The position numbers were made by a program, and so were the translations under genes. Source: an uncultured archaeon (lineage in GTDB: Archaea; Thermoproteota; Bathyarchaeia; Bathyarchaeales; Bathycorpusculaceae). Taken from it: a DNA stretch of 64,000 nt. Shown here piece by piece: positions 21,240 to 23,469 of the stretch. Each line of letters begins with the position of its first letter. Positions within the stretch are counted from its first letter, which is position 1. The notes beneath the pieces are model-generated. The model worked only from the letters and a program-made list of their open reading frames with translations. It was not told where the DNA came from and ran no database searches. The stretch covers positions 1 to 64,000 of the forward strand of contig CALJDG010000024.1 in NCBI GenBank assembly GCA_938023865.1. The letters run 5' to 3'.

Positions 21240-21626
21240 TTATGAAGGATAGCATGTAGTACACTTGCACTCTTTGAGAGTTGGCAAGTCTTCTTCGTGA
21301 AGTTTGCATATAACCTTTTCATATCTTAAAGTAGCGCATATTTCGCAAAGTTTTTCTATAACGTTTTCTGGTGTTGTATCTTCTCTGGCAAGAGTTTCAG
21401 CCAGCTTTGATATCATTCTCATGGCTTCTTTAGATTGGGCTATTTCCTCTGCAAGCGTTTTTCCTCTTTCGCCCTTAAAATATTGGGTTATAGCTGCTGG
21501 AGTTAGCTCCATTTTGTTGGACGCCCTGATTTTTCGCATGTTATGCTTTTCCACAAGCTCTTTTGTTACCAGCGCCCTTATTGCTGGAAGGAGATATTTG
21601 ACTACAACTACGCATGGTGGTTTCAA
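21240..21626 (-). CDS. HTH transcriptional regulator with C-terminal Cys/His motif (COG2522-like)
   Basis: HTH KYLLPAIRALVTKELVEKHNMRKI...AAITQYFKGERG; C-terminus LCEICATLRYEKVICKLHEEDLPTLKECKCTTC; paralog at 44567. Confidence 0.75.
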   Translation of the reverse strand: MKPPCVVVVKYLLPAIRALVTKELVEKHNMRKIRASNKMELTPAAITQYFKGERGKTLAEEIAQSKEAMRMISKLAETLAREDTTPENVIEKLCEICATLRYEKVICKLHEEDLPTLKECKCTTCYPS

Positions 21627-21654: not shown

Positions 21655-21698
21655 TTTATATATTTTTAACGGTGTTAAATAAGGTTTAACGGTGTTAA
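21655..21698. promoter_or_regulatory. Shared TATA (21655-21663) and two palindromic operators TTAACGGTGTTAA (21666-21678, 21686-21698)
   Basis: Two exact copies, each a TTAAC-N3-GTTAA dyad, offset exactly 20 bp, immediately 5' of the ATG at 21700. Confidence 0.75.
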
Positions 21699-21699
21699 A

Positions 21700-23469
21700 A
21701 TGGCTGAAATACACCTAATCAAACTTGCAGAACTCCACGAGCACGAAGAAACAGACCCAGCACACTTGAAAGAGCTAACACAGCAAATAGCCGCGGACAA
21801 AATCCTAAAACACCCAATAGTCGTCGATGAAAAGACAAACACTATGTTGGATGGAGAACATCGTTTCAACGCCCTTAAAAGCCTCGGATGCAAAAGAATC
21901 CCAGTAATCTATGTGGATTATAACTCTCCCAACATAGTGGTTCAAACGTGGAGAAACAATTACAATCTAACAAAAAAGGATGTTGTGGAAGCCGCTCTGT
22001 CAGGTAAGCGTTTTCCACCTAAAACAACATACCACATGATAAAAAATAGTGAAACACTATCACATATATCGTCAATTGAAAAGAGGGTTGACATTCCTAT
22101 TGAGGTGTTAAAAAGTGAACTTACGCTTGCTCCAATTAATAGTATAAAGGTTGCCATGAAAGTTGAACTCGCGGATGCGCTGCCGGCATACACGAAGTTC
22201 TTTAAAACGGGAATCGTTGACGATCCATTAATAGTGGATAGAAAGACGGGTATCTTGCTTTATGGCTATGAGGCCTTTCAAGCTCTTGACCTGCTTTCCG
22301 CGGAAAAAGCGCCCACATTTAAGGCGAACTTAGAGGTTGTGGAAATTAAAACATCAAATCCAAATATGGGAAGCCTGTCTAAAGAGGATATTGTCCAAGC
22401 TGGAACTAAAGGGCCGAAACTCCCACCTAAAAGTTTCACTATTCTTACAGAGCCTGTTAAAATAAGTGTCCCGCTGGAAAAATTGATAGTTAAGAAGAGG
22501 CAAAATCGTAGGGTGCTTAAAGTTTACAGGAGCACTTTAGAACTGCTTCACGAGGGCTGGCCAACTCCCCTTGTGAAACTGAATTCCTTCTCTTCTGCGG
22601 CTCGAAGTGTCTGGGCTAAACTTGAGTGCTATAATCCCTTCAGCAATAGCGTCAAAGATAGAATAGGCTGGGCTATGATTAAAGAGGCCATAGAGAATGG
22701 AGAGCTTAAAACGGTTTTGTATGAGGCCACATCCACAAACACCGGCATAGCCTTAACCTCCATAGCCAACACCCTCGGTATAAAAACAAGGCTTTACATA
22801 CCAAAAACCATACAGAAGGCAAGCGACACCTACCTAGAAGTTCTCGGAGCAGAGGTCGTGCGGCTTCCAGTAGGCTTAACCGTTGAGGCAATAAGCCATG
22901 TAGAAAGGGAGGCAAAAGCTAACAAGGCAGCCCACCTAAACCAGTTCGAAAACGATGCCAACTTCAAGGCTCACCTGAAATATACAGCCAAGGAAATAGG
23001 CGAACAATTAAATAGCCTAGGCTTAAAGCCAACATGCATAATAGGGGGAATTGGCACATCCGGCCATATGAGCGCTATATCCCACTACTTTAAAACCAAA
23101 TACGGAAATAGCGTAAAAATTGTAGGCGTCCAGCCAGCCCAAAACGAGGTTATCCCAGGTATTAGAAGGATAGAGACCGGCATGAAATGGTTCCATAACG
23201 CAGTTTTCGACAAGGTAGTAGACGTGAAGCAAGCAGAAGCCATTGAAGGCGCGATAAAAATAGCCAGAAATGAAGGTCTCCTAATAGGGCTAAGCTCCGG
23301 AGCCGTTGTCTACGCCTTCCAGAAAATCGCCGAAGAGAAAGGCGTATACGTTCTCGTCTTCCCCGACAGTGGATACAAATACGGAGAACAATTCGAAAAA
23401 TATTTGACAAGTGTTTCGCCGAAAAACCAGAGGGGGCTACCCAAATTTAACAATTTTGGAGACAGCTAA
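21700..23469 (+). CDS. Fusion: SerK/ParB-like serine kinase domain(s) + PLP-dependent cysteine synthase (CysK-type)
   Basis: N-terminus LDGEHRFNALKSLGCKRIPVIYVDY...PPKTTYHM; C-terminus NPFSNSVKDRIGWAMIKEA, ATSTNTGIALTSIA, IGGIGTSGHMSAISHYF. Confidence 0.88.
   Translation: MAEIHLIKLAELHEHEETDPAHLKELTQQIAADKILKHPIVVDEKTNTMLDGEHRFNALKSLGCKRIPVIYVDYNSPNIVVQTWRNNYNLTKKDVVEAALSGKRFPPKTTYHMIKNSETLSHISSIEKRVDIPIEVLKSELTLAPINSIKVAMKVELADALPAYTKFFKTGIVDDPLIVDRKTGILLYGYEAFQALDLLSAEKAPTFKANLEVVEIKTSNPNMGSLSKEDIVQAGTKGPKLPPKSFTILTEPVKISVPLEKLIVKKRQNRRVLKVYRSTLELLHEGWPTPLVKLNSFSSAARSVWAKLECYNPFSNSVKDRIGWAMIKEAIENGELKTVLYEATSTNTGIALTSIANTLGIKTRLYIPKTIQKASDTYLEVLGAEVVRLPVGLTVEAISHVEREAKANKAAHLNQFENDANFKAHLKYTAKEIGEQLNSLGLKPTCIIGGIGTSGHMSAISHYFKTKYGNSVKIVGVQPAQNEVIPGIRRIETGMKWFHNAVFDKVVDVKQAEAIEGAIKIARNEGLLIGLSSGAVVYAFQKIAEEKGVYVLVFPDSGYKYGEQFEKYLTSVSPKNQRGLPKFNNFGDS

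Follow-up and report, generated by a model that had tools for sequence, protein, structure and literature searches.

A conserved serK-cysO gene fusion in Bathyarchaeota, encoding a probable serine kinase joined to an O-phosphoserine sulfhydrylase

Introduction

Can a single polypeptide carry L-serine through O-phosphoserine to cysteine? The question is raised by a gene in the genome of an uncultured archaeon of the Bathyarchaeia (GenBank assembly GCA_938023865.1), where we analyzed the first 64,000 nucleotides of contig CALJDG010000024.1, called the window below. A reading made from the letters and predicted open reading frames of this stretch (the sequence-only reading) had proposed that the gene encodes one active SerK-like unit, one degenerate SerK-like unit, and a cysteine synthase.

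Three known systems bear on the question. The characterized SerK of Thermococcus uses ADP as its phosphate donor. In Thermococcus kodakarensis, this ADP-dependent kinase (TK0378; PDB 5x0b series) feeds a phosphoserine-dependent cysteine synthase, and its gene is described as stand-alone and outside any operon (PMC5120207). In staphyloferrin B synthesis, the free-serine kinase SbnI, which has the same fold, gives phosphoserine to the fold-type II pyridoxal phosphate (PLP) enzyme SbnA, but the two are separate proteins and the product is a different one. The O-phosphoserine sulfhydrylase (OPSS, or CysO) of Aeropyrum pernix (PDB 1wkv, 3vsc, and 6l0q) is a 389-aa protein without a fused kinase. 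Fusions of the ParB/SerK fold to other domains are known in archaea from a survey of ParB-CTPase-fold proteins (PMC12704722), which names CBS, ASCH, MT-A70, and HTH partners and does not mention a cysteine synthase partner in its main text. We found no published account of a serK-cysO fusion in the open-access literature.

Results

The gene occupies positions 21700 to 23469 of the forward strand of the window as a single ATG-started open reading frame with no internal stops, encoding 589 aa, and full-length homologues occur in 10 other genomes. Residues 1 to 139 (21700 to 22116) form a compact SerK-like unit, delimited by PDB and NCBIfam matches, alignments, and an AlphaFold model, and residues 140 to 589 correspond to a complete CysO-type OPSS, made up of the CysO N-terminal domain (aa 140 to 284; 22117 to 22551) and the PLP fold-type II sulfhydrylase domain (22552 to 23466), all on the forward strand. 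A Pfam search of the whole protein returned PALP at residues 285 to 555 (E 4.5e-50), and upstream of PALP it returned only a sub-threshold ParB_N match at aa 4 to 78 (23.6 bits against a gathering score of 26.3). Because that gathering score was missed and the HTH and dimerization domains of ParB were not found by Pfam, we rejected the identity of a ParB partition protein. The junction falls at the natural end of the compact SerK (VDIPIEVLK), exactly where stand-alone compact SerKs stop.

The motifs on which the sequence-only reading relied (LDGEHRF, LTKKDVVEAALSGKRFPPKTTYHM, LLYGYEAFQALDLL, NSVKDR, and ATSTNTGIA) are all present where it had placed them, and its central claim, that kinase-like and sulfhydrylase-like units share one polypeptide, is upheld by the domain matches. 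The proposed pathway link gains strength from operon neighbors in other lineages and from the conservation of the fusion. Its division of the protein has to be redrawn. It was right that the C-terminal part is a PLP-dependent synthase, but the natural unit is longer than the ~310 aa assigned to it, beginning at about residue 140 and taking in the second SerK-like segment. It was also right that the first SerK-like unit is intact and the second degenerate; the latter, however, is the standing N-terminal domain of CysO and not a separate pseudokinase added by the fusion.

Several observations identify that domain. The two SerK-like units match each other (32% identity, E = 5e-10), their family profiles align in hhalign with 99.4% probability (E = 6e-22), and in the structural model residues 140 to 284 repeat the helix and strand order of the first unit. 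YGYEA (aa 188 to 192) stands in the place of DGxHR, a motif kept at the CysO N-domain in 0 of 13 aligned proteins. Stand-alone CysO genes (390 to 460 aa), including that for A. pernix OPSS, already carry a domain of this type, so that a tandem duplication of SerK within the fusion is ruled out. Judged by these matches, the CysO N-terminal domain is a SerK homologue without the catalytic residues, and the N-domain of A. pernix OPSS can accordingly be understood as related to SerK. Since the degenerate unit is a standing part of CysO-type OPSS, the fusion, by its domain makeup, is simply serK plus cysO and not kinase plus pseudokinase plus synthase. When SerK and CysO were aligned together, the SerK rows appeared to fall on the CysO N-domain; this joint alignment was set aside, and the models were made from separate alignments.

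The SerK-like signature claimed for residues 1 to 115 was recovered both by domain searches and by structure prediction. Against PDB sequences, these residues match SbnI (E 1.6e-9) and Thermococcus SerK (E 7.4e-8), and the NCBIfam SerK model NF053625 gives 62.2 bits (3.9e-17) over model positions 15 to 101 of 244, below its equivalog cut-off of 380; stand-alone compact SerKs score likewise. In the alignment with Thermococcus SerK, HE (aa 15 and 16) corresponds to H29-E30, DGEHR (aa 51 to 55; 21850 to 21864) to D69-G-H-H-R73, Trp84 (21949 to 21951), which is kept in all 11 fusions, to Trp102, and KTTYH (aa 108 to 112; 22021 to 22035) to K221-T-T-R-H225, all on the forward strand. Glu16 (21745 to 21747, forward strand), the counterpart of Glu30, is invariant in 68 of 68 SerK-like rows, and PDB entries 5x0j, 5x0k, 5x0e, and 5x0g are, by their titles, SerK structures with Glu30 mutated to Q or A. 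Equivalents of SerK E30, D69, H72, R73, W102, K221, T222, and H225 are retained in every one of the 11 fusions.

The unit here shares with T. kodakarensis SerK a common ParB-like core and the equivalents of Glu30, Asp69, Trp102, and His225, but it has only 139 residues, is fused to a synthase, and scores below the NCBIfam cut-off. The ~90 to 100 residues between the ParB core and KT-x-x-H in the Thermococcus enzyme (~116 to 203) have no clear counterpart, leaving a gap in the fold alignment as well, and the full-length (~240-aa) SerK architecture is therefore not what residues 1 to 139 present. The same internal segment is missing from the aligned stand-alone compact SerKs, which at about 140 to 190 aa are widespread in the phylum; a search of the open-access literature found no biochemistry of any compact SerK. 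The AlphaFold model of the compact unit (pLDDT 96) has as its nine nearest solved folds SerK, SbnI, and the SerK-like Pyrococcus protein 1vk1, with ParB/Noc and sulfiredoxin behind. The best matches are 1vk1, 5x0g, and 5x0k (E down to 1e-9, probability 1.00), and the predicted fold compares with that of T. kodakarensis SerK at a query-normalized TM score of 0.75 to 0.80. Residues 1 to 139 are thus probably a complete compact SerK-like kinase that phosphorylates free serine. In a 2025 survey (PMC12704722), one SerK-like fusion from archaea was found to bind CTP rather than ATP, so the nucleotide donor of the fused kinase may differ from ADP.

The C-terminal part has A. pernix CysO/OPSS (1wkv) as its nearest solved relative, at 2e-58 against 9e-36 for the next enzyme. 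Lys319 (22654 to 22656, forward strand), within NSVKDR, aligns with the PLP lysine K127 of the A. pernix enzyme, and Arg489 (23164 to 23166, forward strand) aligns with its Arg297, to which phosphoserine recognition is credited (PMC5120207); ATSTNTGIA carries T344-S345. Over 36 CysO rows, K319, S345 (S153 in A. pernix), and R489 are invariant and T344 (T152) is nearly so. The full-length model is closest to 1wkv and 3vsc (445 to 453 columns, target-normalized TM 0.85 to 0.87), and the fold alignment spans nearly the whole 382-residue A. pernix chain, including the N-domain, which has the same position in both proteins and is shorter in A. pernix.

Full-length fusions of 572 to 598 aa were found in 11 genomes (the window genome, G347, L070/G340 [Bathyarchaeota A05DMB-3], G335, L071/G333, L078/G334, G332, L074/G336, L072, L073, and L075), and the family search found one in 8 of 91 genomes. 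The SerK tree groups the fusions in a single clade (support 99/94), and so does the CysO tree (support 100/99), where the clade also takes in two genomes that have lost the kinase half. On the evidence of both trees, the fusion arose once, in one Bathyarchaeota lineage. In the first of the two kinase-loss genomes (ILS 200; L076, 3902 to 5509), the SerK half is cut to a ~65-aa remnant in which KTTYH has become ENSEH, and the genome has a separate intact SerK elsewhere that belongs to another lineage of the SerK tree, a situation that fits a continued need for the kinase step. In the second (L077, 4007 to 5377), the kinase half is reduced to its last residues. A compact SerK was not found in this genome, its sole SerK-like gene being a diverged one, and the kinase half is therefore not essential in every case.

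Four of the bins in this clade (L072, L073, L075, and L077) are titled "uncultured Sulfolobales" and nest within the Bathyarchaeota fusions; their titles are probably misassigned. A different N-terminal partner of CysO was seen in Bathyarchaeota SKYB89 (L104, 1991 to 3610), where a CysO-type OPSS carries a ThiS/MoaD-like sulfur-carrier domain (PF02597, E 1.2e-15) in place of SerK, the sequence running ...FIPAVSGG and then into CysO. Another CysO-type OPSS (L083, 3962 to 5320) retains only the tail of a sulfur carrier. Together, L104 and L083 are sister to the SerK fusions, one of which is also present in SKYB89.

At 16 loci outside the fusion clade, serK is followed directly by cysO in the same orientation, often with a gap or overlap of 0 to 4 nt, in Pyrodictium, Pyrodictiaceae, Acidilobaceae, Thermodiscus, Ignisphaera, Desulfurococcales, Thermofilum, Geocrenenecus, a Nitrososphaerales bin, and others, and at 6 further loci the two genes are divergent neighbors. 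In Desulfurococcales, serA and an aminotransferase gene are reported to adjoin serK; a serK-cysK operon is not described in that report's passages on serK location (Makino et al., PMC5120207). The combination of operon neighbors with a conserved fusion is a Rosetta-stone case, which by gene order and gene structure strengthens the link of serK and cysO in one pathway.

The window genome also encodes a second SerK-like protein of 214 aa, whose gene follows a TrpB2 gene after about 20 nt (L038 3347 to 5386, C19). In all 13 other family loci with neighboring sequence (L150 to L156 and L158 to L163), TrpB2 likewise adjoins a second SerK-like gene of about 200 to 250 aa, which lies downstream and often overlaps it. 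All 12 aligned proteins of this kind keep Glu30 and the D-G-x-H-R positions, and Arg replaces SerK Trp102. TrpB2 is an O-phosphoserine-dependent tryptophan synthase (Busch et al. 2014, as cited in PMC11917138), and the pair looks like a serine-kinase/tryptophan-synthase operon. This pairing, with the reported use of O-phosphoserine by TrpB2, ties SerK-like proteins independently to phosphoserine-consuming PLP enzymes.

We also looked at the metabolic setting. No serine acetyltransferase scored over its cut-off in eight fusion genomes; serine hydroxymethyltransferase is present in 8 of 8, which would supply serine, and CysRS, the presence of which implies a need for free cysteine, is present in 7 of 8, the exception being the window genome. 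A ~550-aa SerA-like gene, a candidate for the 3-phosphoglycerate route, was found only in G332, G334, and G336, the window genome having a 347-aa dehydrogenase. Among the PALP genes of the window genome, no other cysteine synthase was found, the remaining full-length members being threonine synthase, TrpB, and TrpB2; one further member, a contig-end fragment (C93), was left unclassified. No SepRS scored over its cut-off there, and on this ground the tRNA-dependent cysteine route was rejected; the assembly is about 80% complete, which makes absences from this genome weak.

Upstream of the gene, a pair of palindromes (TTTAACGGTGTTAAA), 20 bp apart, lies at 21665 to 21679 and 21685 to 21699, the second abutting the ATG, beside a TATA-like sequence (TTTATATAT) at 21655 to 21663. 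Genome-wide, six relatives have matches to the pattern TTTAACNNNGTTAAA solely as this pair at the fusion promoter. The window genome has one extra match, in a region under a long open reading frame, which looks like chance; the exact pattern is absent from the eighth fusion genome, G336. A reversed control pattern gave 0 matches in these genomes. We regard the paired palindromes as a probable operator. Divergently transcribed from the fusion is a gene for a 128-aa protein with a Cys-rich C-terminus (21240 to 21626, reverse strand), conserved beside most fusions (67 to 85% identity by tblastn at the fused loci). It has no Pfam match and no confident NCBIfam match, is HTH-like by eye, and is presumed to be a regulator and the natural candidate to bind TTTAACGGTGTTAAA.

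Discussion

The fusion itself, the identities of its domains, the conservation of their key residues, the single origin, and the operon link are all read from sequence, and they point to a bifunctional enzyme. We think it likely that this one polypeptide converts L-serine and a nucleoside diphosphate to O-phosphoserine and then, with sulfide, to L-cysteine; both activities, the order of the reactions, and any benefit from proximity or channeling are what we infer. The compact SerK unit would transfer a nucleotide phosphate to free L-serine, with Glu16 acting as the counterpart of SerK Glu30. The C-terminal domain would then take up O-phosphoserine, with PLP on Lys319 and the phosphate recognized by Arg489, eliminate the phosphate, and add sulfide to give L-cysteine, and the catalytically dead SerK-like domain between them may be a structural or docking element. 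The gene probably came about when, in a single Bathyarchaeota lineage, read-through merged two neighboring genes and so placed an active SerK ahead of CysO.

The alternative that survives best is that the SerK-like N-terminus phosphorylates no serine and instead regulates the cysteine synthase, as a sensor that binds nucleotide or as an allosteric switch. Proteins of the ParB fold are often switches, as in the ParB-type CTPases, the archaeal SerK-like fusion mentioned above bound CTP (PMC12704722), and the adjoining middle domain is already a noncatalytic member of the fold. However, none of the 11 fusions has lost the SerK-specific Glu of the HE motif or the C-terminal KT-x-x-H, SerK and SbnI are the nearest folds, well ahead of ParB/Noc, a separate SerK adjoins CysO in many lineages, and ILS 200, where the fused unit has decayed, encodes an intact SerK elsewhere. 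We therefore consider a purely regulatory role unlikely.

Less likely still is that the enzyme makes from phosphoserine some other beta-substituted alanine, whether a 2,3-diaminopropionate precursor, as SbnI/SbnA do and as the sequence-only reading had allowed, or cysteate. O-phosphoserine is a substrate of SbnA and cysteate synthase too, and their profiles do match, but more weakly, at 127 bits (TIGR03945, cut-off 349.95) and 102 bits, both far short of their cut-offs, as is the SbnI model NF033589 (47.6 bits against 350). Among solved enzymes, A. pernix CysO is by far the nearest (201 bits against about 127 for the next non-CysO enzyme), no cysteine-synthase-type gene other than the fusion was found in the window genome, and 0 of 8 neighboring proteins checked are related to siderophores or coenzyme M. 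The diaminopropionate alternative thus loses its footing, cysteate chemistry was rejected on the profile score, and we give products other than cysteine very little weight. Finally, the idea that two adjacent genes were merged in assembly or annotation, by a stop codon lost to sequencing error, can be rejected with near certainty, for although serK and cysO of relatives are spaced by 0 to 4 nt, the identical junction recurs in 11 genomes, whose fusions group as a single clade in both trees, joined in the CysO tree by the two remnants.

Given a bifunctional serine kinase-sulfhydrylase, one may ask what the covalent link achieves. A tentative possibility, which we hold to be less probable than its opposite, is that the joined enzymes channel O-phosphoserine and that the dead SerK-like domain of CysO provides the surface on which a separate SerK formerly docked. 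If so, the N-terminal domain of CysO would derive from a SerK captured long ago, and partnership with SerK would be a general device of archaeal phosphoserine-consuming PLP enzymes, CysO and TrpB2 among them.

Thus, a two-step pathway that is usually spread over two neighboring genes appears here on a single protein. With a conserved fusion and repeated operons, the serine-kinase route becomes directly testable with one recombinant protein. The findings extend this route, for which SerK had been described in Thermococcales and Desulfurococcales, to further lineages, Bathyarchaeota and Nitrososphaerota among them, and they point to a minimal kinase of ~140 aa for a free amino acid.
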